This document shows positions 22,314-40,165 of a DNA stretch of 47,448 bases, one piece after another. This DNA comes from an uncultured Verrucomicrobiales bacterium (GTDB lineage Bacteria > Verrucomicrobiota > Verrucomicrobiia > Limisphaerales > UBA1100). How positions within the stretch are numbered: position 1 is the stretch's first letter; each line of letters opens with the position of its first letter. The stretch is taken from assembly GCA_913042895.1 (NCBI GenBank), contig CAJWMQ010000005.1:1-47448 (forward strand). The letters run 5' to 3'. The notes below the pieces were generated by a model. It was not told the origin of the DNA, searched no databases, and worked only from the letters and a program-made list of their open reading frames with translations. Both the position numbers and the translations under genes were made by a program.

Positions 22314-22333
22314 GAATAAGGGCTCTTTTTTGT

Positions 22334-22362: not shown

Positions 22363-22380
22363 GTTTAAGGTTTGTTAAGT

Positions 22381-23325
22381 TTACTTAGCGCTCGTCTTCT
22401 GCGTCCTGTCCTTAGGGAGAAGTACTTTGTCTATAACGTGAATTACGCCATTGGCAGTGTTGATGTCGGCTTTGATTACGTTCGATTTGTTGATGAACAC
22501 CTGCCCATCTTTCAGCTTGAGTTTCACCTTCTCACTGGCAACGGTCTCAACCTTGCCTGGCTTGATGTCCTTGCTCTCAACTTTTCCGGCAACTACATGG
22601 TATGTAAGTATTTTGATCAGTTTGTCTTTATTTTCAGGCTTCAAAAGACCTTCAACTGTTCCCTTAGGTAATTCCGAGAAGGCTTTGTCGGTCGGTGCAA
22701 ATACGGTAAATGGCCCTTTGCCTTTGAGGGTGTCTACCAAGCCGGCCGCTTTAAGTGCAGCTGCGAGAGTTTTGAAGTTCCCTGCGGCGACAGCAGTATC
22801 AACAATGTCGGCAGATTTACTTTTGCCTGATGTGGAGGTGAATTCTGTCTTTGGTTTCGGAGGTAGCATGACACGATCAATCACGTGCACTATTCCGTTA
22901 TCAAACTTCACGTCAGCTTCCCGCACCCGTGTATGGTTGTTATTCAGCAAGACGTAGTTGCCCCATTTCTTAACTGCGAGGTGGGCGCCATTCACAGTTT
23001 CTAACTCACCGCTTCGAAGGCTGCAGGATGTGCGAGCTTCTCCCAAAACGTGGAAAGTAAGAATGGACTTCAGTTGCTGCTTGTTCTCGGGTTTGAGTAG
23101 GTTTTCTACGGTGCCTTTCGGTAATCTCGCGAATGCGTGATCGTTAGGAGCGAAAACAGTGTAATTGCCCTTGCTTGATAACGTCTTGGAAAGGCCTGCG
23201 GCTTTTACGGCAGTGACGAGTGTCTTGAATTGTCCGCAATCTTCTAAAGCAGACATGATGTCTTTGGCTTGAGCTGTGGCGGTCGATAGGCCGGTTATTG
23301 CGATTATGGTGAGTAGATTTTTCAT
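22381..23325 (-). CDS. Secreted protein with two FAS1 (fasciclin) domains
   Basis: 314 residues from the ATG at 23325 ([20 protein letters not shown] signal peptide; a TTG further upstream falls inside a hairpin). Two FAS1 domains, about 22-150 and 170-305, each with the H1-type motif ([24 protein letters not shown]), LPKGTVExLLKPENK, a YH or FH motif ([16 protein letters not shown]) and the H2-type end ([24 protein letters not shown]). The first domain has an extra Cys pair region (TSCSLRSG). FAS1 proteins are adhesive or ligand-binding; in photolyase clusters their role is unproven. Probably arose by duplication of the single-domain gene upstream. Confidence 0.95.
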
Positions 23326-23342
23326 TTTTTCCCTTTGTGTTA

Positions 23343-23369
23343 AAGGGAGGGGGCACAACCCCCTCCCTT
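23343..23369 (-). other. Intercistronic hairpin between the two FAS1 genes
   Basis: Perfect 11-bp inverted repeat (AAGGGAGGGGG / CCCCCTCCCTT) with loop CACAA, in the 73-base gap between the two FAS1 genes. Like the hairpin at 22334-22362 it contains a GAGGGGG-type core, follows a FAS1 gene and lacks a U tract on the transcribed strand. Same possible roles: 3'-end stabiliser or partial terminator setting expression steps in the operon. Confidence 0.7.
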
Positions 23370-23398
23370 AATGTGGTTTATTTCTTCGGTAGCCGTTT

Positions 23399-23875
23399 TT
23401 ATTTAGACTTGGGGATAATCACGGAATCGATCACATGAATAACGCCGTTGTCGGCCATTACATCCGTGGCTACAACTTTGGCTTTGTCTACATGGACTCC
23501 CTTTTTGGATACCTTCAGCTTGAAAGAAGAGCCTGACGCAGTCTTTACCATGCCGGATTTCACATCCTTTGCCATTACCTTACCTGGAACTACGTGGTAC
23601 GTGAGAATGGAGATCAACTGCTGCTTGTTCTCCGGCTTGAGAAGGCTCTCGAGAGTTCCCTTCGGCAACTTGGCAAAAGCTTCGTCGGTAGGAGCAAAAA
23701 CCGTAAAAGGGCCGTCGCTCTTGAGGGTGTCAACCAAATCAGCTGCTTTCACGGCGGCTACCAAGGTTTTGAAGGATTTATTCGAAGCAGCAACATCTAC
23801 GATGTCACCCGCTTGGAGTTGAGCGGACATCATTAGGGTGAAAGCCGCGGCGAGAAGGGTTTTAAGGTTTTTCAT
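23399..23875 (-). CDS. Secreted single-domain FAS1 (fasciclin) protein
   Basis: 158 residues with a signal peptide (cleaved after about LQA, residue 22). One FAS1 domain: [55 protein letters not shown] and [13 protein letters not shown], the standard motifs of the family. Periplasmic or surface location expected. It is the first gene of the long co-directional run that includes the sigma factor and photolyases, preceded by a well-formed promoter-like sequence (TTGACA, see 23937-23964). Abundant secreted FAS1 proteins in light-stress clusters are common but functionally undefined. Confidence 0.95.
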
Positions 23876-23936
23876 TTACTATCTCTTGATTAGGTTTTGT
23901 TTATGTTTTAGCGCTACAATAGCTGCAGCGCACATA

Positions 23937-23964
23937 AATTTACTCCTAAAAAGAGATGTGTCAA
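23937..23964 (-). promoter_or_regulatory. Predicted promoter of the light operon (upstream of FAS1)
   Basis: On the minus strand: a perfect TTGACA (23959-23964), 16-base spacer, then TAAATT (23937-23942), 61 bases before the FAS1 ATG. The -35 lies in GGTTGACACAT, nearly identical to GGTTGGCACAT before the MerR gene. A CACAT/ATGTG pair 20 bases apart brackets the spacer. Retained -35 plus a non-consensus -10 fits the altered region 2.4 of the sigma factor encoded in the operon. The rest of the 154-base gap has a GCGCTACAATAGCTGCAGCGC dyad-like patch near 23911-23931 and nothing else I can name. Confidence 0.55.
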
Positions 23965-24029
23965 CCTTTTGTGAAGAAAAAAACTCTACAAATCATGAAC
24001 AGAGTATTTCCGTGGAATTACCGAATTAA

Positions 24030-25130: not shown

Positions 25131-25571
25131 CTAGCTGATGATTTCGAAGATTGCCTCCACTTCCACGGCGGCGCCGGTGGGTAGAGCGGCGAAGCCGAGG
25201 GCACTGCGGGCATGGTAGCCGTCGCCGTCCTTGTCGTAAATTTCGTGGAGTAGATCGCTCGCGCCGTTGATTACGAGGTGTTGGTCGGTGAAGTCCGGCG
25301 CCGAGTATACGCAGCCAAGCAGCTTGATGACCTTCAGCCCGTTGATCGTGCCGTGCGCGTTGTGGACGGAGTTCAGTATTTTTTCCGCGCAATCTCTCGC
25401 CGCAGCGTAGCCGTCCTCGACGGACAAGCCGCTACCAAGCACGCCAGTGGCTGTGCTAGTGTGGCCGCTGGTGAAAAGCAGGTTGCCGCTGCGGATGCAG
25501 AGATTCAAATAACCGGGCTCCAATTGAGTGAACGCTACGCCCAGTTCCCTCGCTTTTTCCTCGGGAGACAT
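25131..25571 (-). CDS. RidA (YjgF/YER057c/UK114) family protein
   Basis: 146 residues, cytosolic. Typical fold marks: GNLLFTSGHTSTATGVL, an N-terminal strand with Leu/Tyr, KVIKLLGCVYSAPDFTDQHLVINGAS and the C-terminal HARSALGFAALPTGAAVEVEAIFEI, which carries the conserved Arg of the imine-deaminase site. RidA enzymes hydrolyse reactive enamines and imines such as 2-aminoacrylate. The subfamily is not the E. coli RidA type but the longer form with a central insert, often of unknown substrate. Last gene of the GC-rich run 32414-25131, 43 bases after the hydrolase. Confidence 0.92.
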   Translation of the reverse strand: MSPEEKARELGVAFTQLEPGYLNLCIRSGNLLFTSGHTSTATGVLGSGLSVEDGYAAARDCAEKILNSVHNAHGTINGLKVIKLLGCVYSAPDFTDQHLVINGASDLLHEIYDKDGDGYHARSALGFAALPTGAAVEVEAIFEIIS

Positions 25572-25614
25572 GCGGAAATCGTGCCGTGCCGTGCGCTACG
25601 GCGCAATGCTGAAT

Positions 25615-27513
25615 TCAATCACGCGACTGACGCAGCTCTTTCAGATCCGGCAAGTCGTAATGCTGGAGGGCGCGGGGGTGGATGGTGTGTAGGTGTAGGT
25701 TGGCTTGGCGGTGGGTGAGGAGGGTTTGCCAGTCGGGGGATGGTTCAGTGAGGGTGAGCTTGTTGAAGAGTTGCGGCTCAAGCGCGGCAGCATGTTGGGC
25801 GGCGGTGGCGGTTCCACCGTGGGCGATGATCTGGATGGATTTCGTTTTGTGCGACTCGGCCAACCAATTGGCACAGGCAAAAATATCCTCGGTGCGCATG
25901 GCGAGGTATGAGCGGCCGAGCAGGTAGGCGATGTACCAGTCCGCCCCGGAAAAGCGCCAGTTGCGGGTGGCGGTTTCGCCTAGGTCACGGAGGTCCACGG
26001 CCAGCACGGGATGCCCAGCGGCTTGGAGCTTGGCGACCCGTGGCAGCACGCTGTTGAGGCCGGCATCGGGAGTAATGAGCACGGGCGCTTGTTTGCCCTG
26101 CGGCCAGTACAGGGTGGGTAGGGAAATACCGGGTTCCGGATGGAAAATGAGCGGCGCGGGCAGGTCTTTGCGGAGGAGTTTGGTGGTCTTGAGCACGGGC
26201 AGCTCCTTGAGCCTGCGAATACCGGTGATGGCACGCAGGCGTTCGCGGGTAAGCGGCGGGCGTTGGGCGGCCAGTTGCCGGGCATCAATCTCCAGCCAAT
26301 CGAACATGGAGCGTGCATTTTTGAGCTGCAACACATTTCCCCCGGACGTGACCTGCAACTCGGCGTCGGCGCGAACGCGTACGTTTTCCGCCTCAATGAT
26401 TTCCACCACGCGCCCCTGCAGCCAGCGCGCAAAGAACCGTACGGCACCCTCGCGTAGGTGGCGGGTAAATCCATGCTTTTCATTGGTCTCCACCAACGCC
26501 ACACGCTCGGGGTGACCGAGCACGGTGTAGGCGCGCTTGGCCTGCCGATACCCTTCCCATGTGCCTTCGATAGGCACGAAATCAGCCGTGGCGGCGAGGA
26601 TGAGCGTGGGCTTGGGCGCGCGGGCGAGAATGAAATCCGGATGATCAAAGCCCTCGCGAATTTGCGCGAAAAGATTCTGTTCCGCATCGCCCGGGCCGGG
26701 GAATTCATTTTTGCGTCGGTGCGTGGTTATGAAACAACCCGGCGCCGCGGCCGCAATGCGGTCGTCATACGCCATCAGAAAACTCGTCAGGTTACCGCCG
26801 CCTGAATTGCCCATACAACCCAGTCTTTTGTCATCTACATCTGGCCGACCAGCAAGATAATCCAGCGCGCGCACTCCGTCCCACAACATCCAACGGCCCA
26901 GCCCGCCGCCCAGCAAAATGGGCGCTGGCCCCAGCACGGCGTGTTCGCTAGTGGGCCTGAGTGGCAAGCGTCCATCCGCATTGACCAACTGCCGTCGTTC
27001 ACCCTGGCCGATGGGGTCGTAACACAACACCACGAACCCGTGCTGCACCAGCAGGCGATTGGCCTTTTGATATTCCCGGTACGCTTTGCCGTTGGCCGAG
27101 TGGCCGCACGGATGCAGCACGGCGGGAAACGGCCCCTTGCCCGCGGGCCGGTAGACATTCGACGTTACATGAAATCCCGGCCTGCTTTCGAAGAGCACCT
27201 TTTCGATCGTGAAACCATCCTCGCGCAACACGCCGGTGACGCGCGCATTCAGCGGCGTGCGCTTGGGCATCTCACCTAGAGTCCAACGCAGGAACCCGCG
27301 CCGTTTCTCTTGATACACCGTTAGCGCCTTGGGCGATTGCAGAGCGGCTTCCAGATCCTTCAAGCGCTGATCCATCTTCGCGTGCACCTGCTGACGCAGG
27401 TAGGACCGCATCATCTGCTGTTCCTTATCCGTGTTAAACTCCGGCGGCAACACCCGCAGCGCAGCCGGCACCGTTTGCACCACGGCCAACAGAACAAGAA
27501 TCAGGCGAACCAT
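25615..27513 (-). CDS. Exported double alpha/beta-hydrolase (acetyl xylan esterase-like)
   Basis: 632 residues from the ATG at 27513, which starts a signal peptide (MVRLILVLLAVVQTVPAALR); an earlier TTG is less likely. The first hydrolase domain (about 95-385) has FPAVLHPCGHSANGK, CYDPIGQGERR, nucleophile Ser in GCMGNSGGGN, Asp in ADFVPIEG and His in NEKHGFTRH, a complete triad. The second domain (about 460-632) has the same topology (APVLITPDAG, VLAVDLRDLGE, IIAHGGTATAA), but its elbow reads HGGTA rather than GxSxG, so it is probably catalytically dead. Likely a carbohydrate esterase in the periplasm. PVC genomes have many such two-domain proteins. Confidence 0.85.
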   Translation of the reverse strand: MVRLILVLLAVVQTVPAALRVLPPEFNTDKEQQMMRSYLRQQVHAKMDQRLKDLEAALQSPKALTVYQEKRRGFLRWTLGEMPKRTPLNARVTGVLREDGFTIEKVLFESRPGFHVTSNVYRPAGKGPFPAVLHPCGHSANGKAYREYQKANRLLVQHGFVVLCYDPIGQGERRQLVNADGRLPLRPTSEHAVLGPAPILLGGGLGRWMLWDGVRALDYLAGRPDVDDKRLGCMGNSGGGNLTSFLMAYDDRIAAAAPGCFITTHRRKNEFPGPGDAEQNLFAQIREGFDHPDFILARAPKPTLILAATADFVPIEGTWEGYRQAKRAYTVLGHPERVALVETNEKHGFTRHLREGAVRFFARWLQGRVVEIIEAENVRVRADAELQVTSGGNVLQLKNARSMFDWLEIDARQLAAQRPPLTRERLRAITGIRRLKELPVLKTTKLLRKDLPAPLIFHPEPGISLPTLYWPQGKQAPVLITPDAGLNSVLPRVAKLQAAGHPVLAVDLRDLGETATRNWRFSGADWYIAYLLGRSYLAMRTEDIFACANWLAESHKTKSIQIIAHGGTATAAQHAAALEPQLFNKLTLTEPSPDWQTLLTHRQANLHLHTIHPRALQHYDLPDLKELRQSRD

Positions 27514-27549
27514 ATCAGTCAGTTTGGCTAGCCTGCCGGTAGAGCGCAA

Positions 27550-28884
27550 CTATTTCGCCAAGCTGTAGCAGCGGATTTCGCGATCGTTGCGGAGGTACAC
27601 GCTACGGTTGGCGAAGGCGGGGTGCGACCAGACGAGGGTGCGTTGGCCCACGCGATGGGTCGGCTCAATGAGCTTCGCGCGGCTGATTTCCTCGTAACCT
27701 TTGGGGCTGAGCCGAGCAATGATCAACTCGCCAAAATCGTTCGCGAGAAAATATCGGTTACCGTGCCGGACGGTAAACACATTGGCCCAACTCACCGGTC
27801 GTTCGCCGGCGGCTGGTGCGAAGGTGCTCCAGACGCGTTCTCCATCGGCCAGACGCGCGCAGATGAAGTTGCCGCCATTGCCGCAGGCGTAGAGATGGCC
27901 GTCGGCCAGAAACGCGGTGTTATGCACGCCACCCGCGCCTCGCCGTGTGTTGCCGCGCCAGGCGATTTGGGCGGATTGGCCGTCTGCCGCCACCTCGATG
28001 CAGGCGGAGACGCGGTTAAAGCTCATCACAAACAACCGGTTGCCTTCGGCTATCGGTTGGCCGATGGACATCCCGAAAGTGGGCCGCAATGGCATGCTCC
28101 AATACAACTCACCGGTAAGGGGGTTCAGTGCTTCCACGGCGTCGCTATGCCAGATGATCAACTGCCGTAGACCGCCGAAGGTGTGGATGACCGGCGGACA
28201 ATATCCCGGTTGCCGGCTCGTGAGCGCGCGCCACAGTTCCTTGCCTGTGCGTTTGTCGAACGCCACGCACGTGGTGCCCGCGCCGCCCACTACACAGATC
28301 AACCGGTCGCCATCCACCAACGGATGCGCCGCCGTACCCCACTCGGGGATTTTTAGGTTGTAAGCTTTCTTGAAATCCTTTTGCCACATGATCGCGCCAT
28401 CCTTGACCGCGAAACAAAACAGATGCCCCTCCGCGCCTAGTGCGTACACGCGGTCGCCCTCCACGGTGGGCGTGGCCCGTGGGCCGATGGCATAGGTGGT
28501 CACGGTGGTGTAAGGGCAATCCCATTGCTGCTTCCAGAGCACGCGGCCGGTCGCCTCATCGAGGCACTGCAGGCGTTCCTGGCCGGGTAATAATTTGCGC
28601 AGAAAATTTTCATTCCGCGGCGGTTGTCCCTCATGCAATACCTTGGCCTTGGCCGGATCAATCAGCTCGGCAATGCGGTCCATGACAAACACACGCCCTT
28701 GCGCCACTGCCGGCCCGGAATATCCGCCGCCCAACGGCGCACGCCACCGTAGCTTCGGACCTTCCCTGGGAAAAGCATCGAGAATACCGTCCTCCCGCCA
28801 CACCGCATCCCGCCTAGGCCCCAACCACTGCGGCCAATCCGCAGCCGAAAGTGTCCCGCTCAATATCAGAATAAATAAAAGCAT
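27550..28884 (-). CDS. PQQ-like beta-propeller protein (exported), second copy
   Basis: 444 residues from the ATG at 28884 (a GTG six bases earlier is the alternative), with a signal peptide (MLLFILILSGTLSAADWP). The mature start DWPQWLGPRRDAVWRE is the typical PVC PQQ-like opening, followed by blades such as LDEATGRVLWKQQ, FDKRTGKELWRAL and LNPLTGELYWSMP. No dehydrogenase active-site or heme motif. Possibly a glycan-binding or quinone-cofactor-dependent exported protein; function unknown. It sits between the DUF1501 gene (84 bases upstream) and the hydrolase (36 bases downstream). An imperfect hairpin (GTGCCCGGCAC core) lies just before its start. Confidence 0.85.
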   Translation of the reverse strand: MLLFILILSGTLSAADWPQWLGPRRDAVWREDGILDAFPREGPKLRWRAPLGGGYSGPAVAQGRVFVMDRIAELIDPAKAKVLHEGQPPRNENFLRKLLPGQERLQCLDEATGRVLWKQQWDCPYTTVTTYAIGPRATPTVEGDRVYALGAEGHLFCFAVKDGAIMWQKDFKKAYNLKIPEWGTAAHPLVDGDRLICVVGGAGTTCVAFDKRTGKELWRALTSRQPGYCPPVIHTFGGLRQLIIWHSDAVEALNPLTGELYWSMPLRPTFGMSIGQPIAEGNRLFVMSFNRVSACIEVAADGQSAQIAWRGNTRRGAGGVHNTAFLADGHLYACGNGGNFICARLADGERVWSTFAPAAGERPVSWANVFTVRHGNRYFLANDFGELIIARLSPKGYEEISRAKLIEPTHRVGQRTLVWSHPAFANRSVYLRNDREIRCYSLAK

Positions 28885-28968
28885 TTGCACATCCCCAGTG
28901 TGCCCGGCACAAGGGGTAGGCCAAGCTTCATTTTAATTCAGCGAACGGGATGTCTCCCCTGAGCTCCC

Positions 28969-30312
28969 TTAGAACAACGGCAGGGGATTCCCATCGCAGA
29001 GCTGGAAGGGGCGGTCGAGTTGATCGTGCAGTTCGGTGCGTGGATCAATGCCCATGGCGCGGAAGGCGGTGGCGTGGATGTCCGCCGGAGAACAGGCACC
29101 GGCCGCGGGCTCAGTACCCTTCTTGTTGCTGGCACCATATACCTGACCACCTTGGATGCCACCGCCGGCGTAGGCCAGCGAGTAGACATTAGGATAATGA
29201 TCGCGGCCACCGTTGCCGTTCACCTTGGGCGTACGGCCGAAGTCGGTGAGGAATACCACCAGGGTTTCCTCCAACATACCGCGCATCTCCAGGTCGGTGA
29301 GCAGGGCGGATACGGATCGGTCAAAGACGGGCAGGAGCCGGTCTTTCATTTTTGGAAAATGATTGCGGTGCGTATCCCAGTTGTCTCCGCTACCGCCAGC
29401 GAGGTCGCTGGCGGAAAGGAGGGTTTGCACGACGGGCACACCGGCCTCAACCAGACGTCGGGCAAGCAGGAGGGATTGGCCGCCCATGTGGTCGCCGTAC
29501 ATATTGCGGATCTTGGGATCCTCCTTCTCCAGATCGTAAGCATCGCGCACCGGCGACCCGAGCAGCATGTCGGCGGCCATGCGCGAATAATGATCGAGCT
29601 GCTCGTAGGCCGTCTCTTCACTGCGCGCGTTGTCCAATTGGGTGAGCAAGGTTCGGCGGTCGGCGATGCGGCTCTTGTCGAGGTTCAGCTTCAGGTTCAG
29701 CTCGCGGTCGGTGTAGCGGTTAACGCCACGCCACGGTTCGCCGGCCGGCGTGCGCACGAGGATGGGATCGTACTGGGAGCCGAGCCAGCCGCCGTGTTCG
29801 CCGGATTGTTGGCCGCCGTTGTCGAACATCGAGTAAGGCATACGGATGGCCCGTGGGGTGCCGGCGGCCGGGTTGTGGAAATAAGACATCATCGATGCCA
29901 GCGACGGCCAGTTCTTGGTGCTCTTGGGCTTGGCCCCTACGGGGTTGTGGCCGGTCATGTTCACGTACATGGCTGAGCCGTGGCCGCCGTGCTTGTGATG
30001 CACAGAGCGCACAATGGCTAGCTTGTCCGAGTGCTTGGCCAGCATCGGGAGGTGTTCGCAGAAATGAATACCGGGCGTGGCGGTCTTGATGTGCTTGAAT
30101 TCACCGCGGATTTCCGCGGGGGCTTCAGGCTTGGGGTCGAACGATTCGTAATGGCTCATGCCACCCCACGTGTAGACGATGATGCACGACTTGGCTTTGC
30201 GCTGCGGTGCGGTCGTGCTGGCGGTGGCCTTGAAATACGTGGGCAACGTCAGCCCAGCCAATCCCACGCTTGTGCGCAGGAAATCTCTTCGACTATGGTT
30301 CAGGCTTAGCAT
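28969..30312 (-). CDS. DUF1501 protein, Tat-exported sulfatase-like fold
   Basis: 447 residues. A twin-arginine signal (HSRRDFLRTSVGLAGL) opens the protein, so it is exported folded, probably with a metal. The core is the DUF1501 family: CIIVYTWGGMSHYESFDPK, VHHKHGGHGSAMYVNMTGH, GGQSLLLARRLVEAGVPVV, WDTHRNHFPKMK, VVFLTDFGRTPKVNGNGGRDHYP. This family has an alkaline-phosphatase/sulfatase-like fold; reactions are undefined. In PVC bacteria it is usually beside a DUF1549/DUF1553 cytochrome, but no such partner lies next to it here. 73 bases separate it from the LRR-VHL gene upstream. Confidence 0.93.
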   Translation of the reverse strand: MLSLNHSRRDFLRTSVGLAGLTLPTYFKATASTTAPQRKAKSCIIVYTWGGMSHYESFDPKPEAPAEIRGEFKHIKTATPGIHFCEHLPMLAKHSDKLAIVRSVHHKHGGHGSAMYVNMTGHNPVGAKPKSTKNWPSLASMMSYFHNPAAGTPRAIRMPYSMFDNGGQQSGEHGGWLGSQYDPILVRTPAGEPWRGVNRYTDRELNLKLNLDKSRIADRRTLLTQLDNARSEETAYEQLDHYSRMAADMLLGSPVRDAYDLEKEDPKIRNMYGDHMGGQSLLLARRLVEAGVPVVQTLLSASDLAGGSGDNWDTHRNHFPKMKDRLLPVFDRSVSALLTDLEMRGMLEETLVVFLTDFGRTPKVNGNGGRDHYPNVYSLAYAGGGIQGGQVYGASNKKGTEPAAGACSPADIHATAFRAMGIDPRTELHDQLDRPFQLCDGNPLPLF

Positions 30313-30385
30313 CGAGTCTTGGACGCTCCGAACGTTGTACCAATTTACTGACTCAAAGCGGAATTTTCAAGATTAGAGAACTGGA

Positions 30386-31243
30386 TCATTTTGGAATCAC
30401 AGCCAGGGCCGTCTTGGTGCCAGCGACAAAATAACCGAGGGGTTTGTCTTTATTATCAGTCACCAACCAGACGGCGTCGGAATAGGTGTTTTGCTTGCGC
30501 TCGGCGCCCTTGGAAATTTCGCCGTAAAGCTTTTTGCCGCCACCATAATCGACCCAGTAGAGTTTCACATCCTGATTACTCTTGTTCTGGAACGTGATGA
30601 TGAGAAAGGAGCCGGGCTTGCTTTTTGCCGGCGGTTTCTCCGGGCCGCCGAAGGCCAGCCATTTGAGGTTTTCCTCCGGTTTGGGCTCTTCTTTTTTTAC
30701 GATCACAATCTTGCTGAGATCGACGCCTTTCACGATTTTCAGGTTGGGCAGTGCCTTGTTTATCTTGGCTACGCCGTCGTCGGTCACCTCGGTTTGCCAG
30801 ACGTATAGTTGCCTGAGATTCTTGAGGCTGCTCAACTGGTCCAGTGCCTTATCGGTGATTTTAGTGCCGTACAAGTTGAGATACTCAAGGTTCTCCAGAC
30901 CGGTCAGGTGACTAACCCCCGCATCGTCTACGGCCGTGCGTTCTAGGTGCAGGCGCTTGAGCTTGGACAGGCCCTTGAGGTGCTTGAGGCCTTCACTGGT
31001 GATTTTCGTGTCGCGCAGGTTCAGGGCTACCACGGTTTTCAGAGCCGCAACGGCGGATAGGCCGTCATCTTCGAGGTCTCGGCCGCGCAGGTGGAATTCC
31101 ACCTCCCACGCGTCCTGTTCCCCAGGCCAGGGCAGGACGAGGCCGCCACTTTTTTCAATTGCTGAAATCACTGATTTATCCGCGGCCAATCCCGTCGGCA
31201 GGCCGACGCCTAGGAGAAGTCCAATGATCAATGCTTTTTTCAT
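30386..31243 (-). CDS. Exported LRR protein with a C-terminal VHL-like beta domain
   Basis: 285 residues with a signal peptide (about 1-20). Residues about 45-175 are leucine-rich repeats of the RNI type (VVALNLRDTKITSEGLKHLKG, then four more at about 24-residue spacing). After a Lys/Pro/Glu linker, residues about 215-282 align without gaps, as I recall human pVHL, from N220 to W259: Trp230, Tyr240, Gly246, Arg249, Tyr254 and Trp259 match human Trp88, Tyr98, Gly104, Arg107, Tyr112 and Trp117. Thr253 and Ala257 replace Ser111 and His115, two residues of the hydroxyproline pocket. No alpha domain (elongin-C binding) follows. Probably a protein- or peptide-binding periplasmic module; ligand unknown. 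Confidence 0.85.
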   Translation of the reverse strand: MKKALIIGLLLGVGLPTGLAADKSVISAIEKSGGLVLPWPGEQDAWEVEFHLRGRDLEDDGLSAVAALKTVVALNLRDTKITSEGLKHLKGLSKLKRLHLERTAVDDAGVSHLTGLENLEYLNLYGTKITDKALDQLSSLKNLRQLYVWQTEVTDDGVAKINKALPNLKIVKGVDLSKIVIVKKEEPKPEENLKWLAFGGPEKPPAKSKPGSFLIITFQNKSNQDVKLYWVDYGGGKKLYGEISKGAERKQNTYSDAVWLVTDNKDKPLGYFVAGTKTALAVIPK

Positions 31244-31262
31244 GGAATGATTTTGTTGAGGG

Positions 31263-32414
31263 TTAGTTTAAATTCTTAGGGACGGATCCGTTGCCGGTTA
31301 GTTTTCCGCCATCCAGGATCCAAGCGAGATTGAAGCGCGCCACGGCTGAGCCGCCTTTGGGGCCGCCCTCGAAATGGTGAAAAATCATACCTTCGGTGAT
31401 GGTCCCCGGTCTGCCAGAGGTCATTGAGGAATAGGCGTGGCGGCCTTGGTACACCAGCTTCTTGATCGGCCAAGTCTTGCCGCCATCGAAGCTGGCCCAC
31501 ACCGTACCGCGATCGCGGCCGGAAGGGCTGTCGCAGTTGCTGTAGATCAGGATGTCATGCCCTTTCACGGCCAAGCGCGTGAGGCCGGCCATGCAGCCGT
31601 AGTTGGTGTTTTGTGGACCGTCGGGCAGCACCTCGCAGAAGGTAAGGTTTTTCCAGGTATGGCCGCCGTCCGTGCTGGTGGCGGTCCAGCGCCGACGGGG
31701 GTTGGCGCCTTCCTCGGCCCAGTGCCGTCGGGAGTTGTAATAAATAGTACCGTTGCTCAACTCGGCGATCGTCGCTTCGCCGGTGCCCTTGGCGGGGAAG
31801 GGCTCGCTGGCCTGCCACGTCTTGCCGTCATCATCACTGTAAATGGCGTTGGTGTAATGTTCGGGCCATTTGCTGCGATGGTTTTGGCCAGCGTACCAGC
31901 GGGAAGGGCGGATCAGACGGCCCTTGTGTTTGCCGTGGCGCAAGGTGATGCCGTGATCGTTCATGTGCATGGACGGCGCATTGCCTTTTGAGTCGGGCTT
32001 GATCTTGGTGGGAATCTTCTCCCACGACTTGCCGTCATCGCTGCTCACGTACACGTGGATCGGGGCGGGCGGATGGCGATCTTCCACAAACGCGATGATG
32101 TCGCCATTGGCTTCGTTTACGGTGACGCCGCCCGGTTGGAAGCCGGGCTTGGCGATAACAATTTCCGGTCCCCACGTCTTGCCGCCATCCTCGCTGCGCT
32201 TGGCTCGCACATGGCTGGTGCCCCAGGTGGCGATGACCGTGCCTTTCATGGAAACCACAATGTTGCCGAACCGTTCGCCCTTGAAGACCTGTTGCAGGTC
32301 CATGTGTGGGTTTTCCAAATGCGGCTTCAATGGACCTTCCACTTCAGCGGCCGTGGCAATGCTTTGGCCCCACACCATCACGGCAGTCATCAACATGAGA
32401 AATAGTTTTTGCAT
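31263..32414 (-). CDS. BNR/Asp-box sialidase-like protein (copy 1)
   Basis: 383 residues from the ATG at 32414, chosen for the signal peptide that follows (MQKLFLMLMTAVMVWGQSIA). Five Asp boxes of the form SxDxGKxW are visible (SEDGGKTW, SSDDGKSW, SDDDGKTW, STDGGHTW, SFDGGKTW), diagnostic of six-bladed sialidase propellers. Arg residues of an Arg triad are plausible (RAKRS, RPSRWYAG, SGRPGT), but I cannot place them with certainty. It may be an exo-alpha-sialidase (GH33) or one of the many PVC BNR proteins with other glycan targets. First gene of the run to 25131 and divergent from the lipoprotein gene, 98 bases apart. Confidence 0.85.
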   Translation of the reverse strand: MQKLFLMLMTAVMVWGQSIATAAEVEGPLKPHLENPHMDLQQVFKGERFGNIVVSMKGTVIATWGTSHVRAKRSEDGGKTWGPEIVIAKPGFQPGGVTVNEANGDIIAFVEDRHPPAPIHVYVSSDDGKSWEKIPTKIKPDSKGNAPSMHMNDHGITLRHGKHKGRLIRPSRWYAGQNHRSKWPEHYTNAIYSDDDGKTWQASEPFPAKGTGEATIAELSNGTIYYNSRRHWAEEGANPRRRWTATSTDGGHTWKNLTFCEVLPDGPQNTNYGCMAGLTRLAVKGHDILIYSNCDSPSGRDRGTVWASFDGGKTWPIKKLVYQGRHAYSSMTSGRPGTITEGMIFHHFEGGPKGGSAVARFNLAWILDGGKLTGNGSVPKNLN

Positions 32415-32512
32415 ACGGCCCAAGAGTGCCATCAAAGCATCCGTTGTCAACGGGTTCGATCAGAGTTATTCACTGGTCAAGGCTCGAACGGTTTTTTAGG
32501 GTTGTCCATTCC

Positions 32513-33379
32513 ATGCGCTGGTGTTGGTTCATATTGATCTGTCTGTTGGGGTTATCAGGGGCGACGGGCTGTCTGACGGCCGGAGGAGCGGTTGTGCGCG
32601 GTCTGGATCACGAAGCGAATGAGCGGGTGGTGCCATTGACTGCGGAGGAAATTGTCGAGCGATATCGTGCGACCGAGCGGTCGCGGGCCAGTGCCACGGA
32701 GTCGGGGGTGGTGTTCATTTACCAGAGGGATATTCGGATTACCGATTTCGATTCGGAAGGCGAAGTGGAACGCCTGCAGACCCGGCGGTTTAAGTCGTTC
32801 ACTGATAACCGCGTACCCGTGCTGGTGTTGCGCGACGGCAAGAAGCCGACCCCGGAACAGGTGGCCAAGGAACATCGCAACATCCGTAAAAAGCAGCTGA
32901 AGTTTTTGGGCACCCAAGCCAAGGCCGGACCGGCGGGCGAGAAAAAGGATGAAGGCGATGCGCGGTTGATCGTGCGCCAGATCGAAAAGTACGGGGAACA
33001 GTTTGAGCCGCACCTGCTGGGCACGGAATCGGTGGAGGGGCGACCGGCGTATGCGCTACAGTTTTTCGTGAAACCGGGCGAGGTGTTTAAGGACCCGATT
33101 GTGAACCTTGTGCTGCATCACCTAATCATCAAGGTATGGATCGATCGGGAGGAATTTCAGTTGTCTAAGCTTGAGGCCGAGCTGGCCAATCCGCTGTACG
33201 CTATCGGCGGACTGGCAGCTAAGCTGGAGCGGTTCAAGGTGGTGGCCGTGCAGAAACGGCTGACGGCTCAAATTTGGACGGACGGCGAGGTGCGTGCCGA
33301 GGCGTCAGGGCGCGTGTTGTTTGATCCTTTTACCGTGCGCTTTGAAAGCAAGTCCTCCGTCTTCGAGCCGCTCAAGTGA
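32513..33379 (+). CDS. Uncharacterised lipoprotein (LolA/LolB-like size and style)
   Basis: 288 residues from the ATG at 32513. The leader MRWCWFILICLLGLSGATGC ends in a lipobox-like Cys at residue 20, so it is probably membrane-anchored. The mature part is rich in alternating strands (TESGVVFIYQRDIRITDFDSEGEV, YALQFFVKPGEVFKDP) with a C-terminal LFDPFTVRFESKSSVFEP. The pattern resembles outer-membrane lipoprotein-sorting proteins, but I see no decisive motif. Alone on the plus strand between two minus-strand runs; its stop lies 16 bases from the beta-helix gene stop (convergent). Confidence 0.75.
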   Translation: MRWCWFILICLLGLSGATGCLTAGGAVVRGLDHEANERVVPLTAEEIVERYRATERSRASATESGVVFIYQRDIRITDFDSEGEVERLQTRRFKSFTDNRVPVLVLRDGKKPTPEQVAKEHRNIRKKQLKFLGTQAKAGPAGEKKDEGDARLIVRQIEKYGEQFEPHLLGTESVEGRPAYALQFFVKPGEVFKDPIVNLVLHHLIIKVWIDREEFQLSKLEAELANPLYAIGGLAAKLERFKVVAVQKRLTAQIWTDGEVRAEASGRVLFDPFTVRFESKSSVFEPLK

Positions 33380-33395
33380 GCCGCCACGGCGCACG

Positions 33396-34739
33396 TCACG
33401 AATCGATCGTCTTGACGTTGCCCTCGATGGGCTTGCCGGAAGTTTTGCCGACTGAATTGTGCGCTGCAGAGTTGCCTTCGCCAAGGCCGGTAAACCGAAT
33501 GGCGTGTTGAGCGGTGGGTTGCTCGCGGGTGTCGTGCAGGGTGTTGCCGGTGAGAGTCACAAGGCTGCAATCTTTGCCGTCCACGCCGATGGCGCCATTG
33601 AGAAACTGGCTGCCGCTGATGTTGATGCGCTGACATCTTTCAAGTTCCAGCAAGGCGGTGAGATCAGGTTGGCCTTCGGCGGTCTCGTCATGGATGCCGC
33701 ACCCAGTGAAGGTGATGTCGCTGGAGCCAGTGAAGCGCACGCCGGTGCCGTACCGTGGGGTATGGCGGCGGAAGGTGTTACCGCTCACATTGATGAGGCG
33801 CGAATCCTCAATGAGCAGATTCCGATTCTCACAGGAGTAAATCGTGTTGCCGCTCAGGGCGATGCCGTAGCAGCCGGTGAGGTGCACGTTGTTTTCTTGG
33901 CTGCCGATGATGTTGCCGCTGATGGCAAAGAGGCCGGGCGGCCGGGATTGATCGGGCGTTTCCTTGATGCGGATGTTTGCACCCTCGGGTGAGCCGGTGG
34001 CTTGAATGGTGTTCGAGGCGATGGTCACTTCGTTCACGCTGGCACCTTCGGCGGTGGCGTCGATGTAAATTTCGGCGGTCGGCTCAGGCTCGGCCCCGTG
34101 CGATTTATGATTGTTGTACTCGATGTCGTTGCCGGTGATTTGCAGGTTGCGCACCTCCGAGCGGTCGAGTCGGATGCCGCCCAGCCGGTTGTAGCTGATG
34201 TGGCTGCTGGCAATGTTGATCTGGTGCAGGTTCACTCCATCGAGATACACGCCCACGCCGGTATTAAAATAGATGTGGCAATGACTAATGAGTACGTTGC
34301 GATTCCGTTGGATGAGATGAATGCCATGCCGACAGCGCGTGACTAGTACGCCCTCGAATACGGATTGCATGGTCTCGATCAGTTCGAATCCATCAGCCTC
34401 CGTGTGTGCGCCTTCCACCTCGATATTGCGGATGGTTGGAAGGCGTTGATGTGAGGCGACGTTGCCCTTGCGGCTGCCTGGATCGCCCGTGCCGCCATGC
34501 GTGCCTACCAGCCGAAACGCCGGCCCCTTACCGTCCATCACCACTCGCGCCGTGCCGCCCGTGCCGTCGATGCCCAATGGCCCGCGTTCGGCCAGCTTGA
34601 TCTCGATGGGCTCGGTGATGCGATAGGTGCCCGGCGGAAAATGCAGCACGCCATCGCCCTGCGTCACGGCATGTTGGATCGCCTCCGTATCATCCGCCAC
34701 GCCATCGCCGATCGCGCCAAACCGCGTCACATTGCTCAT
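33396..34739 (-). CDS. Right-handed beta-helix (pectate-lyase-like) protein without signal peptide
   Basis: 447 residues. It begins VTRFGAIGDGVADDTEAIQHA, the standard opening of Pectate_lyase_3/polysaccharide-lyase-like beta helices, then PPGTYRITEPIEI and many coil repeats with the GNxI and NxxxNxxxG patterns (VLISHCHIYFNTGVGVYL, NLQITGNDIEYNN, ISGNTFRRH). No signal peptide is present at this ATG, and the in-frame upstream codons run back without another start to the DUF1552 stop, so as written it would be cytosolic. That is odd for the family and for this operon. Could be a glycan-binding or lyase-like protein. Confidence 0.85.
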   Translation of the reverse strand: MSNVTRFGAIGDGVADDTEAIQHAVTQGDGVLHFPPGTYRITEPIEIKLAERGPLGIDGTGGTARVVMDGKGPAFRLVGTHGGTGDPGSRKGNVASHQRLPTIRNIEVEGAHTEADGFELIETMQSVFEGVLVTRCRHGIHLIQRNRNVLISHCHIYFNTGVGVYLDGVNLHQINIASSHISYNRLGGIRLDRSEVRNLQITGNDIEYNNHKSHGAEPEPTAEIYIDATAEGASVNEVTIASNTIQATGSPEGANIRIKETPDQSRPPGLFAISGNIIGSQENNVHLTGCYGIALSGNTIYSCENRNLLIEDSRLINVSGNTFRRHTPRYGTGVRFTGSSDITFTGCGIHDETAEGQPDLTALLELERCQRINISGSQFLNGAIGVDGKDCSLVTLTGNTLHDTREQPTAQHAIRFTGLGEGNSAAHNSVGKTSGKPIEGNVKTIDS

Positions 34740-34787
34740 GGCAAAAAACTGCCCGCGCGAACCGGTGCTGTCAACGGTGCGGGCTGG

Positions 34788-36149
34788 TCAGGCTTGAAGT
34801 CCCGCGATCTTGCCAGTGCTGTCCGCGTAGCGGTCTTGGTCGATGCCGAGGGCGTGCAGGTGCGTGAGCCAGAGGTTGGCCAGGGGTGTGCCGCGGTGGC
34901 AGTTGATGTGTTGGCCCTGTCTGAGACCAGTGGCGCCACCGCCGGCGACGACGATGGGCAGATCATTGTACTGGTGCGTGGTGCCGTCGCCCATGCCGGC
35001 CCCCAGAGTGAAGATGGTGTTGTCCAGTAACGAGGTGCCGTTGGCTTCCTCAATCTTGTCCATCCGCTCGAGCAACCGCGTGAAGGCCAGCACATGAAAC
35101 TGATCAAGCTTCAGCAGCTGCTCTACATGACGGGCGATGGAGTGAGTCATGGCATGGTGACTGTACGGTTTGTCGAGGATACCTTCCCAGTTCGTGGCGG
35201 TGGTCCAGCGCTCGGGACCAACCATGAGGGTGCCCACTCGGGTGAGGCCGGCTTGTAGCGCGGTGACGAGCAGGTCGCCCATGAGGTGAATGTATTCATT
35301 GCGCGGTAGATGCTCAGCGGGCCGCTTGATCTTCGCGGCGGCAAGCTGGGTCTTCATGTTTTCGATTCTATCCATGCGCGTCTCAATGGTGCGTACGGCT
35401 TCGAAATATTCCTCGAACTTGCCGCGATCGCCGGTGCTGAGGCGGCGCTGCAGGGCACGGGCATTTTCCAGTGCGAGATCGGTGATGTTGCGCGATTGCG
35501 TGTGGGCCTGCGTGCCAAAGAGTCGGTCATAAATCTTGCGCGGATTGCGCATGGACGGCGCCACATGGCCGGTCGCGTACCACGACATGTTGTCGAAGTA
35601 GATCGATTCGATGTTGTTCTTGTGATCGTTGCAGCTCAATTCCAGCGTGGAGTAGGGCGTGGCTTGGCCGATGTGATCGGCGACGATGTGATCGAGCGTG
35701 CGCGCCAGCGGATACGCCGAGCCTTTCACTTCAAACGGCGCCACGCTGGTGAGAAAGCACGAGGCGCATTGCGCGTGCGAATCAGTGCCGTGCTGAAAGG
35801 TTCGGTCGAGCCCGGTAATCAGCGAAATCTTTTTGCGCATCACATTCAGCGGCGCGAGCGTGGGGGTGAAGGTGAGCGGATGGGTGCCGACCGGCACGGT
35901 CTTGCCCTCGAACCGCCACACGTTGTTTTGCCCGGCAAACTTCGGCAGCGCGCGGTCGCCTTCGCCCGGGAAAAACCCGCGGCGCGTGATGCCGTTGGGC
36001 AGGTAATAAAACGCCATGCGTTTGGCGGGGCGGGCGTTCTTTTCGCCATTGGCATGCGCGAGGCTCTCCAGCCATGGCAGGCCGAGCATGGCGCCACCGG
36101 TGCAGGTGAGAAATTGGCGTCGTGAGGTTTGGGTAGTGGGATGGTTCAT
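34788..36149 (-). CDS. DUF1552 protein, Tat-exported
   Basis: 453 residues with a twin-arginine signal (TSRRQFLTCTGGAMLGLPWLES). The family pattern follows: RMAFYYLPNGITRRGFFP, GLDRTFQHGTDSHAQCASCFLT, STLELSCNDHKN, FDNMSWYATGHVAPSMRNPRKIYDRLF, GMGDGTTHQYNDLPIVVAGGG. This family shares the DUF1501/sulfatase-like fold and is typically encoded next to a DUF1592-type cytochrome, exactly as here. The ATG overlaps the stop of that gene (ATGA), so the two products are made together and probably form an exported complex. Reaction unknown. Confidence 0.93.
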   Translation of the reverse strand: MNHPTTQTSRRQFLTCTGGAMLGLPWLESLAHANGEKNARPAKRMAFYYLPNGITRRGFFPGEGDRALPKFAGQNNVWRFEGKTVPVGTHPLTFTPTLAPLNVMRKKISLITGLDRTFQHGTDSHAQCASCFLTSVAPFEVKGSAYPLARTLDHIVADHIGQATPYSTLELSCNDHKNNIESIYFDNMSWYATGHVAPSMRNPRKIYDRLFGTQAHTQSRNITDLALENARALQRRLSTGDRGKFEEYFEAVRTIETRMDRIENMKTQLAAAKIKRPAEHLPRNEYIHLMGDLLVTALQAGLTRVGTLMVGPERWTTATNWEGILDKPYSHHAMTHSIARHVEQLLKLDQFHVLAFTRLLERMDKIEEANGTSLLDNTIFTLGAGMGDGTTHQYNDLPIVVAGGGATGLRQGQHINCHRGTPLANLWLTHLHALGIDQDRYADSTGKIAGLQA

Positions 36150-38638
36150 GGCTTCGAGTTTAACGTGTTCTTGTGATGAAATGGTTCGCTCAGGGCCACG
36201 GCCTTGAGGATGGAGCGGAGCCGGTCATCGCCGGTCACGGCCTGAGCGGCCATGGCCTCGAGCACCGGAGTGTCGGCCGGACCCAGCTCGCGGCCCAGGG
36301 CGTAGCTCAGCAGATGTGCGATGAAGCCGCGCACAAACCGCGGTTTCTGTTGTACGAGCAGTTTTTTAAATTCGTTGAAGTCGGCGAACTTGTGCTGATT
36401 GAAGAGTACGTTGCTGACATCCACCTCGCGACCGTTCTCATACTTGTCGCGCCACACACCGGTGGGTCCGAAGTTTTCCAGCGCAAACCCGAGCGGATCG
36501 ATCTGGTTATGGCACCCGGCGCAATCCGCGCGCTTTCGATGGGCCGCAAGGCGTTCGCGGATGGTGAGCTTAGCGAGATCTTCCTCGTTCGATTCATCGA
36601 GCGGCGGCACATCGGCCGGTGGCGGTTTGGGCGGGTCATTGAAAATCACGGCGTTGATCCATGTGCCGCGCGTGATCGGCTGCGTGCGTGAGGGCGTGGA
36701 GGTCATCGTTAGCACTGCCGCGCTGGTGATCAACCCACCGCGGCGCGGATCGGTGACCGGCACGCGCTTAAACAACTGCACCTGCACATCGCGCCCGCCG
36801 CGATTGTGGCCGGCGTAGTTGGCCTTCAGCATGGTACTTTCCCAGGTGAAATCCGGCGCGATCAGGTCCATGACCGAGCGGTTCTCCACCAGTACTGTTT
36901 CAAACAACAGCAGCGGCTCGCTCATCATGTGCATGCTGGTGCGGTAGCCGTGGTAGTAAAAATACGGGAACTGTTTCGGGTCTGGAATGGAGGTCACCAA
37001 CCGGTCGAGCTGTAGCCATTGGGCGGGGAAATTATCGAGGAATCGACTGACTTTTTTGTCGTTCATCATCCGCTCGATCTGGGCATTGAGCACCTGCGGC
37101 TCGCTCAGCTTGCCGGCCTCGGCTTGCTCCAGCAACTTGTCATCCGGAATGCTGCTCCAAAAAAACTGCGCCAACCGCGTGGCTAACTCGAAATCATTGA
37201 TGCGCTGTCGGCCGGCCGGTTTGCTGCCGGGATTCGGGCTCTCGTAGATGTATAGAAAATCCGGCATGCCCAACACCGCGCTCACCACCCGGCGCATGGT
37301 CGTTTCCCAGGTCGCGCCGGCGGCCAGCTGTTGTTCTGCATACTTCGCAAAACGCTCCACGGTGGCCGGTTCGGCCGGTTGGCGGAAGGCCCGCCGCAAT
37401 AGTCGGGTGATTCGATCGCGTACGTCCTGAGCCTCTGTGATTTCCACCGACGGCTTAGGCGCCGCCTTTAGGCCGGTGTGATCGATTTGATCTAGCCCAA
37501 AAAAGAAGCGCTTGGATCGGTCATCCTTGCCCGTGCATTTGAAGGTGAGCGTGTGCGGTCCCGGCGCGATGGCGGCGGTCAACTGATGTTCCATGCGCGT
37601 CACGCGCGTGCCGTACAGATTCACCGTCGGGCCGATTTTTTTGCCATCCAGATAAATATCGAACGCGCCGTAATCGCCCGCCCGCGTGAAGCCGAGCCGC
37701 AAACCGGTGGCCGCTTCGGTGGCGGTCCATTTCACCTGCAACTCGCGATCGGCTCCTTCATTGCGCCAAAACAACTGCGCATCCCCGCTCCATTGATCGC
37801 CAAAGCCTTTCATGTCTTGCCGGCCTGTCGGATCCTTGGGCGGACGGGCCACCTGCACTTGAGCCGCCGCTTCCGCTTCTAGCCGACCCCGCACTGCTTC
37901 GCGTACCGGCTTACCGGGCGCGGCGAAGAGCCAGTTCCAGCTTTTGCATTCCTTCGCGTTGATGTCCGGACTCTCGGCGATGGTTTGGCTGAGCTTGAGG
38001 AACGACTCCATCAACAACGGCGAAATCGTCAAGTGATCCGCGCGGTTATCGAACCCATGCTCCGCGCGTTTGTCCTGCGGAAAGGCCGATACGCCGCGGA
38101 ACCCTTCCGGCCGCTGATTGTCGATATCCTTGCTGAGGGGCCGACTCGATACGCGCACTTCGTTCGGCATCTTTTTGGAAGCCGGATTAAAGTACTCACT
38201 ACGCCGCCGCATCAGCCGCTCGTTCATTTGGAAAATATCGCGGTCGAGCTCCAGTAAATCCACCACCGCGTTGTTGTACTGAAACCGGTTCATCCGTCGC
38301 ATTGGCGTCGCCAAAAACGCCTGCTCTTTCGCCGCCGCACTTAAGAGGCCGCGCAGGGCCTCGATCAATTGCTGTCGATCCGCCGCCTGCATGGCCGGCT
38401 CGTCTTCCGGTGGCATCTCGCGATCTTCGAGTACGGCAATCATGTCCTCCAATAAAACGGGCCGCGCCTGCATATCCGCCAACTTCTTGAACGGCAGAAG
38501 ATTGACTTTCCCCTTCACCTTACCGTCCTGCCCGTGACACTTCACGCAATGCGCCTGGACTAACGCCAATGGCTCCGCCGCGCACGGTTGCAGGGCAAAG
38601 AGAGCGATCAAGGTGAAGATGAGGGAAAACCGATTCAT
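36146..38638 (-). CDS. Di-heme c-type cytochrome of the DUF1587/1592/1588/1585 family
   Basis: 830 residues from the ATG at 38638, which gives a signal peptide (MNRFSLIFTLIALFALQPCAA); a longer frame lacks one. Two CxxCH heme sites: HCVKCHG near residue 35 (PSCyt-like N-terminal domain) and DCAGCHN about residue 690. Family blocks are clear: MRRMNRFQYNNAVVDLLELD (DUF1587), a carbohydrate-binding-like insert (about 255-385), RLLRRAFRQPAEPATVERF (DUF1595), FELATRLAQFFWSSIPDD (DUF1592), RRGGLITSAAVLTMTSTPSRTQP (DUF1588) and PRFVRGFIAHLLSYALGRE (DUF1585). Predicted periplasmic electron carrier or oxidase subunit, acting with the DUF1552 protein. Confidence 0.95.
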   Translation of the reverse strand: MNRFSLIFTLIALFALQPCAAEPLALVQAHCVKCHGQDGKVKGKVNLLPFKKLADMQARPVLLEDMIAVLEDREMPPEDEPAMQAADRQQLIEALRGLLSAAAKEQAFLATPMRRMNRFQYNNAVVDLLELDRDIFQMNERLMRRRSEYFNPASKKMPNEVRVSSRPLSKDIDNQRPEGFRGVSAFPQDKRAEHGFDNRADHLTISPLLMESFLKLSQTIAESPDINAKECKSWNWLFAAPGKPVREAVRGRLEAEAAAQVQVARPPKDPTGRQDMKGFGDQWSGDAQLFWRNEGADRELQVKWTATEAATGLRLGFTRAGDYGAFDIYLDGKKIGPTVNLYGTRVTRMEHQLTAAIAPGPHTLTFKCTGKDDRSKRFFFGLDQIDHTGLKAAPKPSVEITEAQDVRDRITRLLRRAFRQPAEPATVERFAKYAEQQLAAGATWETTMRRVVSAVLGMPDFLYIYESPNPGSKPAGRQRINDFELATRLAQFFWSSIPDDKLLEQAEAGKLSEPQVLNAQIERMMNDKKVSRFLDNFPAQWLQLDRLVTSIPDPKQFPYFYYHGYRTSMHMMSEPLLLFETVLVENRSVMDLIAPDFTWESTMLKANYAGHNRGGRDVQVQLFKRVPVTDPRRGGLITSAAVLTMTSTPSRTQPITRGTWINAVIFNDPPKPPPADVPPLDESNEEDLAKLTIRERLAAHRKRADCAGCHNQIDPLGFALENFGPTGVWRDKYENGREVDVSNVLFNQHKFADFNEFKKLLVQQKPRFVRGFIAHLLSYALGRELGPADTPVLEAMAAQAVTGDDRLRSILKAVALSEPFHHKNTLNSKP

Positions 38639-38722
38639 GCCATCAATCGATTTCAGTGTGGTGGCCCCAATAAGGGCTGTCAAATGCTTACGGACTACCT
38701 GCAAATTTCGATCCGGAAAAGA

Positions 38723-40165
38723 TCAATTAACTTTTTGAAGTTCCTTCAGCATTTCCAGCAGATTACGCGTGAGGAGGGGGGAGGCATTGGGGAGAAAACG
38801 AGAAGTGCCCAGCCAGGTTTCGTAGCCGCCGAGCTCGTGTTGGTTGGGCGGCGGGAGATAGCCGTAGCCGCCGTTGGCCAGTTCGATGAGAAACGTATGT
38901 GGAAACGGGCTCTTGTCTTTGATCTCTAAACCGATCTCCACCAGCACTTCAAACGGCATGGAGACAATGGCTTGGTCGCCGATGCGGATAGCTTGGATGA
39001 TGACCTTCTCCGTGCGAGGGGCGTTCGGTTCGGCGAATCGCATCGTGTGTGTGGCGTAGGAACTGGCCTTGCTGTGAAGCTCCGCGCGTTCCTTGGCCGG
39101 CAGCGCAAGAATCTGGCGGGCGCGAGTCACTTCGGTATCCGTGGGCACACGGTAACGCAGTTCCACCTCGCGCTGGCGCATGGCGATGATGGGGTTGTCG
39201 TGATAGGTCTCAATGCCTTTCACGGCGTGCCAGGCGGCCGTGGCGGTCTTGGTGGCGACCACGCGCACCTGCTCGAAGGGCGCGCGCGGCGGGCGTTTGC
39301 TGTCGAAGTCGATGTTGTTGATGTCGCCCGAGGCGCCGTTGCTCATCATGGACACGAAATTGTCCGGCGGATTCAGGCCGCCCACGCGGTGCGGCATGAT
39401 GCGGGCAAATTCCCCAAAGTAATCGGCGGAGGCCATGCCGACCACGCGGCCATCCTTCTCGGTGACGCGCGGAATGCCGCCGACGTAATGCAGGGCGTAG
39501 TTGGCGATCAAACCCAGCGGTTTGCCGCGGTTCGTGCGGACGTAGATCACGCACAGCTCGGGATCAATCGGCCCAGCCGGCTTTACAATTGCATCGCGCG
39601 GCGGATTCATGCGCACCTTATCCTGGAGACCCCATGGATTGGGATCCATCCGGCCAGGCTTGAGATACCAGCGGCGGTTGTACACTTCGCTGGCTTCCTC
39701 GGCGGAGCCGAAGCCGACCTTCGCCGGTTCCAACGATTGAATGGCTTGGATGAGCGCTTGGCGCAGACCCTCGCGCCGGGTCTTCTCGTAGGCGATACGT
39801 TCGGGCGAAGTGTCGCCGCCTTTGGGCGCGGTGTGCGTGTGCGTGCCGGCGATGAGCATGTGCTCGGGCTTCCAGCCGGTGACCTTGGCGGCGGCGGTCT
39901 TGGCTTCGTCGCACATCTCGCGGCCCACGCCGATAGCGTCCATCACGGCAATCACTACTCGGCCCTGGCCGTTTTCAAACGCCACCGCCCGCACATGCAA
40001 GGGATCATGCACGTAAGTCGATTTGCCCGAGCGCAACTGGAACGGTTTCACCGTCGGCGAAATATCCACCACCGCCGTGCCCACCCGCAGGCCATCAGCC
40101 CGGAGGGGGAGGGTGATGAAGAGGAGGAGAAACAGTGGGGCTAGGAGGAGGAGGTGGCGGTGCAT
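38723..40165 (-). CDS. Neutral/alkaline ceramidase-like hydrolase (copy 2)
   Basis: 480 residues, exported (MHRHLLLLAPLFLLLFITLPLR leader). Same family and length as 12217-13626: VGTAVVDISPTVKP, zinc-site GTHTHTAPKGG, IANYALHYVGG, the NGASGDINNID serine region and LGGYETWLGTSRF near the end. Identity with copy 1 is obvious through YNRRWYLKPG and NPPRDAIVKPAGPIDPE, but insertions differ (for example VTEKDGRVVGMASADYFG). An amide or ester hydrolase is likely; a ceramide substrate is unproven. Nine bases downstream of the sugar dehydrogenase gene and 84 bases upstream of the DUF1592 gene. Confidence 0.87.
   Translation of the reverse strand: MHRHLLLLAPLFLLLFITLPLRADGLRVGTAVVDISPTVKPFQLRSGKSTYVHDPLHVRAVAFENGQGRVVIAVMDAIGVGREMCDEAKTAAAKVTGWKPEHMLIAGTHTHTAPKGGDTSPERIAYEKTRREGLRQALIQAIQSLEPAKVGFGSAEEASEVYNRRWYLKPGRMDPNPWGLQDKVRMNPPRDAIVKPAGPIDPELCVIYVRTNRGKPLGLIANYALHYVGGIPRVTEKDGRVVGMASADYFGEFARIMPHRVGGLNPPDNFVSMMSNGASGDINNIDFDSKRPPRAPFEQVRVVATKTATAAWHAVKGIETYHDNPIIAMRQREVELRYRVPTDTEVTRARQILALPAKERAELHSKASSYATHTMRFAEPNAPRTEKVIIQAIRIGDQAIVSMPFEVLVEIGLEIKDKSPFPHTFLIELANGGYGYLPPPNQHELGGYETWLGTSRFLPNASPLLTRNLLEMLKELQKVN

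Follow-up and report, generated by a model that had tools for sequence, protein, structure and literature searches.

Animal oxygen sensing centres on the hydroxyproline (Hyp) pocket of human pVHL, which many degrader drugs also use as their handle. In pVHL the Hyp is surrounded by Trp88, Tyr98, His110, Ser111, His115 and Trp117, with its hydroxyl bonding Ser111 and His115 and its carbonyl bonding Tyr98 (PMC9528729, PMC6105673). The Drosophila protein (dVHL) carries W, Y, T, H and W at positions 88, 98, 111, 115 and 117 (PMC4195687). Trp117, together with Phe76, also belongs to the core of pVHL (PMC3688787).

The existence of bacterial VHL beta domains is already established (Pfam PF01847). One of them, in EMK97_00595 of Litorilituus sediminis, has been treated in an annotation paper (PMC9002001), the consulted passages of which describe neither LRR, S9, sulfatase or SASA fusions nor the bacterial pocket pattern. 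A paper surveying the architectures of prokaryotic prolyl oligopeptidases leaves VHL unmentioned in its main text (PMC4522959). In the open-licence literature we found no description of a bacterial VHL domain fused to LRR, S9, sulfatase or SASA, or of the pocket pattern; the same holds for the LRR-VHL architecture dealt with here and its derived pocket variant.

Results and discussion

A secreted LRR protein with a VHL beta domain

The LRR-VHL gene and its surroundings are summarized in Table 1, in which positions are those of the window, i.e., the whole stretch of 47,448 nucleotides that was analysed. The protein is that of a marine bacterium, and its closest named relatives are found in Verrucomicrobiota metagenome genomes, a Pedosphaera sp. 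among them.

Table 1. LRR-VHL gene, parts of its product and adjacent genes.
Feature	Position	Strand	Basis
LRR-VHL gene	30386..31243	-	ORF, ATG start, 285 aa, secreted; 12 further orthologs at 49-99% identity
Probable signal peptide, residues 1-20 (MKKALIIGLLLGVGLPTGLA)	31184..31243	-	Sequence and hydrophobic core in hydropathy
Leucine-rich repeats, residues 50-175	30719..31096	-	Pfam LRR_4/LRR_8/LRR_6; model
Mobile module, residues 186-285: LKW... lead-in, VHL beta domain, ...GYF....IPK tail	30389..30688	-	Models; similar lead-in/tail on other proteins
Pfam VHL core match, residues 216-265	30449..30598	-	Pfam
Pocket stretch W230-W259 (pVHL Trp88-Trp117)	30467..30556	-	Alignment to pVHL and orthologs
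BNR_2 (sialidase-like repeat) protein, directly upstream	31263..32450	-	Pfam; conserved neighbour
DUF1501 protein, directly downstream	28969..30312	-	Pfam; conserved neighbour
PQQ_2 beta-propeller protein, next in cluster	27550..28890	-	Pfam and locus comparison
S9/acetyl-xylan-esterase-like hydrolase	25615..27549	-	Pfam; present in L077 too
RidA/L-PSP-like protein	25131..25595	-	Pfam; kept in several relatives' clusters, sulfatase following there

An earlier note, made from the letters of the window, had described a secreted LRR protein with a VHL-like beta domain and no alpha domain, and this description holds. The N-terminus reads as a signal peptide, both in sequence and in hydropathy, with the boundary between MKKALIIGLLLGVGLPTGLA and AD; the repeats, matched by Pfam, extend over residues ~50-175, and a short linker connects them to the C-terminal VHL beta domain. 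The chain stops at the equivalent of pVHL residue ~143, so that the alpha domain, and with it the elongin C contact, is absent, and the protein is not a pVHL in the functional sense of an elongin-binding E3 subunit. The LRR_6/LRR_8 repeats are shared with bacterial LRR proteins of the kind matched by internalin-like NCBIfam models, but an internalin-type LRR was rejected, the score being only 29.3 bits against a cut-off of 1050.

The C-terminal domain is a true VHL beta domain, homologous to that of pVHL. Pfam VHL matches with E 4.9e-6 and 26.9 bits (the curated cut-off is 21 bits), a significant profile match of the kind on which the earlier description depended. A PDB search with the single sequence retrieved only pVHL, weakly (E ~1), and the profile of the protein's own orthologs reached pVHL at E only ~0.03. 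A profile built solely from bacterial S9-type VHL domains had pVHL alone as its PDB match (E ~2e-12), and hhalign linked this profile (proteins such as L071 and L073) to that of the window group with 99.6% probability; these two steps establish homology to pVHL independently of Pfam. The AlphaFold2 model, for which the input alignment consisted of 13 orthologs, had a mean pLDDT of 86 for the whole protein, and the last 100 residues were modelled with pLDDT 91.6 and pTM 0.83. When this domain model was compared with the PDB by Foldseek, all 50 matches listed were pVHL (best 1vcb, E 2.5e-5; TM 0.61-0.71 on query length), i.e., the predicted fold is the VHL beta sandwich, as expected from the earlier note. 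With the whole-protein model, LRR structures lead the list, the first pVHL chain standing at rank 19 (E 2.0e-5, rmsd 2.1). Profile, fold and orthologs together rule out a chance pattern as the source of the likeness.

The putative binding face of the window protein

Besides the fold, the protein shares with pVHL and dVHL a pocket stretch that aligns without gaps (offset +142), in which W230, Y240, G246, R249, Y254 and W259 correspond to Trp88, Tyr98, Gly104, Arg107, Tyr112 and Trp117. The alignment also confirms the two replacements noticed earlier, T253 for Ser111 and A257 for His115, to which N252 for His110 and D256 for Gly114 can be added. The six frames of the window contain a single instance of the full gap-free spacing pattern and a single one of a looser pattern (W, Y, S/T and W), for which the expectation from shuffled windows is 0.15.

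The threonine is no real loss, since dVHL has the same residue at 111 (PMC4195687); one ortholog (L046) has Ser there and Ala at 115 (SFSKATW). Position 115 is Ala in 13/13 aligned orthologs, which indicates a stable state of the family and not an error, and the equivalent of Gly114 is Asp in most of them. Thus, from the set of five residues that would characterize a Hyp reader (Trp88, Tyr98, Ser/Thr111, His115 and Trp117), the window orthologs have four and lack His115.

The LRR domain and the gene cluster

The concave face of the LRR domain, its positions assigned by hand from the LRR motif, is invariant among the 13 orthologs at 13 of 16 positions (N75, R77, R97, H99, E101, R102, Y121, N123, Y125, G126, Y147, W149 and Q150), compared with 17 of 63 for the other non-hydrophobic LRR positions (Fisher p 1e-4).

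The gene is placed 19 bases after the BNR_2 gene and 73 bases before the DUF1501 gene, all on one strand. This cluster is conserved. In 14 of 16 distinct related loci, compared and counted by hand, the next gene downstream, in the same orientation, is DUF1501; the exceptions are L045, with one gene between, and L046, where it is divergent. BNR lies upstream in 11 of the 15 loci in which this could be assessed. In most relatives a sulfatase follows; in the window the PQQ_2, S9/esterase-like and RidA-like genes come next. PSD, DUF1552 and sulfatase genes are also found within the window. Verrucomicrobial sulfatase genes, near PSCyt genes, have been linked to the use of sulfated polysaccharides (PMC5615132).

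Some other features of these loci deserve mention. A 317-aa protein encoded beside the cluster (32426-33379, plus strand) is conserved in L036 and L077 and gave no match in Pfam. Further away (8461-12171), a 1236-aa protein joins ThuA, F5/8 type C, DUF7133, HEAT and cupredoxin domains. The G+C content is 0.43-0.46 over 16001-24000, vs 0.56-0.62 over 26001-40000 around the LRR-VHL gene. The L045 contig is labelled Planctomycetota, yet its LRR-VHL protein groups with those of Verrucomicrobiota; it is perhaps mis-binned.

We lean towards the view that the protein is a secreted, non-catalytic adaptor, whose VHL face would be a protein- or glycoprotein-binding module acting alongside the cluster proteins. 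The label of adaptor comes from the presence of two conserved faces and of no recognized enzyme domain. The small LRR domain would bind one partner through its invariant concave face and the VHL beta domain a second one through the face that pVHL uses for its peptide, and the protein might act, jointly with the products of the sulfatase, BNR and DUF1501 genes in the cluster, on extracellular glycoprotein or glycan-protein material. Several facts count against this: part of the pocket conservation may be structural, Trp117 and Phe76 being core residues of pVHL; the window copy has Ala, Asp and Asn in place of His115, Gly114 and His110; and the BNR, DUF1501 and PQQ proteins point to no named substrate.

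A mobile module of secreted hydrolases

The source genome has four VHL-beta proteins above the cut-off. At least one was found in each of 51 of 98 near-relative genomes (the source genome counted in), and the module profile was matched in 140 of 293 genomes of a wider draw of the order, whereas a draw of the whole phylum gave only 21 of 388 genomes; the enrichment of the order over the rest of the phylum has p ~1e-25, with kinship among genomes ignored. Pfam scans of representatives identified the carriers as DPPIV/S9 peptidase-family proteins (the commonest form in the order, with the module N-terminal or sometimes C-terminal), sulfatases, SASA esterase-like, M90-like (scoring under the M90 cut-off), DUF885 and ankyrin proteins, and two types of LRR protein. 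In this verrucomicrobial order, VHL-beta looks like a mobile module shared by a range of secreted hydrolases, in which it may serve for binding.

What it would bind could also be a common bacterial protein (a scaffold, a surface protein or a cluster member), the module being then a docking domain that assembles hydrolases and the LRR protein. A lead-in and tail like those of the LRR-VHL module also occur on SASA, GH127, C-terminal S9 and sulfatase proteins, enzymes that are unrelated and differ in chemistry, and in L045 the GH127, LRR and SASA genes stand side by side (L045:3-3687), each bearing the module. However, we identified no conserved partner, and a shared substrate would explain the conservation of the pocket equally well, and we consider docking possible but not likely.

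The module is found in other arrangements. In the source genome (C46), L069:6557-8266 codes for a sulfatase with C-terminal VHL-beta; in it and its relatives Tyr112 is replaced by Arg and His115 by Ala, constantly in seven proteins. At L118:4149-7735, proteins of 580 and 616 aa are encoded next to each other, and both carry at the C-terminus a VHL-beta module like that of the sulfatases (RPGAVW). Proteins of ~400 aa (L011, L065, L070) have VHL-beta preceded by an N-terminal part with weak, sub-cut-off M90 or ATLF (metallopeptidase-type) matches.

Conservation of the pocket and its history

In the S9 proteins the module most often lies towards the N-terminus, between it and the matched propeller (L071, L073, L084 and others). 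These proteins differ from LRR-VHL in belonging to a peptidase family and in having, in most cases, the complete W-Y-T-H-W pocket, i.e., all five residues of the Hyp-reader set; typically there is one such protein per genome in the order. Conservation was measured on 27 proteins, each 670 aa or longer, that were sorted by their length and by where the module lies; nearly all are of this type, five representatives of which were scanned with Pfam. Of 53 positions, W88, W117, H115 and Y98 ranked highest in conservation, and H110, T111 and F/Y112 were also within the top ten. That all seven pocket positions (88, 98, 110, 111, 112, 115 and 117) fall in the top ten has a chance probability of 8e-7, which becomes 2e-5 when the two Trp are left out. 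Two residues that line the edge of the site in pVHL, R107 and F91, ranked 18 and 43 and showed no special conservation.

These figures bear on another alternative, that VHL-beta is a structural stabiliser, or a carbohydrate-binding module, which binds no peptide and whose aromatics are core or sugar-stacking residues. Since Trp117 and Phe76 are core residues in pVHL (PMC3688787), their conservation alone proves no binding, and the companions of the module are mostly glycan enzymes. Nonetheless, H115, Y98 and Thr111, which belong to the pocket and not to the core, are among the most conserved positions of the S9 group, and this group is a peptidase family, not one of glycan enzymes. We find this alternative rather improbable.

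His115 is retained in the S9 N-terminal, M90-like, DUF885 and ankyrin proteins and in one LRR type, whereas the window LRR type, the sulfatases, the SASA proteins and the C-terminal S9 copies have Ala. In a tree of 69 rows and 77 columns, the small number of columns limiting its resolution, the Ala115 rows form one group with support 96/75 (L046 counted as Ala115). The window copy is thus part of a single branch lacking His115, which has spread to LRR, sulfatase, sialate-esterase-like and C-terminal S9 proteins and, once, to GH127. We infer that His115 was lost rather than gained, because His is more widely spread and is present in animals. If the pocket is intact in the bacterial S9 proteins and was later modified in the LRR and sulfatase proteins, its recognition chemistry could be studied outside the HIF pathway; one could then test where the pocket came from, and VHL beta domains that stand alone, with or without His115, would be available as natural variants.

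The hydroxyproline question

The earlier note had suggested a binding module, possibly for modified proline. The binding part fits with the spread of the module over peptidase-family, sulfatase and esterase-like proteins and with the conserved cluster. The Hyp part is weakened for this protein: the Hyp hydroxyl is held by hydrogen bonds from two side chains, and for one of these, His115, all 13 aligned orthologs have Ala. Within the adaptor reading, the face of the window copy would probably not recognize 4-hydroxyproline in the manner of pVHL, but proline without the modification, a different residue or a partner protein.

An endogenous Hyp ligand was rejected: 2OG-FeII_Oxy_3, the sole hydroxylase family searched, had no match in the source genome (82% complete), and its genes did not co-occur with those of VHL (7/51 vs 7/47 genomes, p = 1). 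A Hyp ligand would therefore be foreign or the product of another hydroxylase family. The GH127-VHL neighbour in L045 was dropped as a general clue to Hyp-arabinosides, being a single case; among the matches listed in 293 genomes of the order none spans both parts.

It is quite unlikely that the window domain is a true reader of Hyp-rich algal or other eukaryotic glycoproteins in which Thr253, with some other group, takes over the contact made by His115: W88, Y98, W117 and the dVHL-like Thr111 are kept, the sister S9 proteins have the whole pocket and those GH127 enzymes that have been characterised act on arabinosides linked to Hyp (PMC6085000), but the invariant Ala, the frequent Asp at 114, the solitary GH127 fusion and the hydroxylase results all weigh against it.

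With their whole pocket, the S9 cousins make a Pro/Hyp origin of the face more plausible than the window protein alone would. Canonical Hyp reading by the S9 group is plausible, though less likely than not, in view of the intact pocket and the prolyl-peptidase company; a bacterial DPP IV, going by the title of a 2008 J Bacteriol paper cited in PMC5807507, reportedly acts on a 4-hydroxyproline substrate. As a conjecture, VHL-beta could be a bacterial Pro/Hyp-binding module with which S9 proteins capture Hyp-containing proteins by the pocket of animal VHL, the branch without His115 having been re-used on LRR, sulfatase and esterase-like proteins. If true, Hyp reading would exist in bacteria outside oxygen sensing. 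The S9-VHL proteins can also be considerably extended, as in L075:4538-8842, where a protein of 1435 aa has ~600 extra N-terminal residues with no Pfam match.
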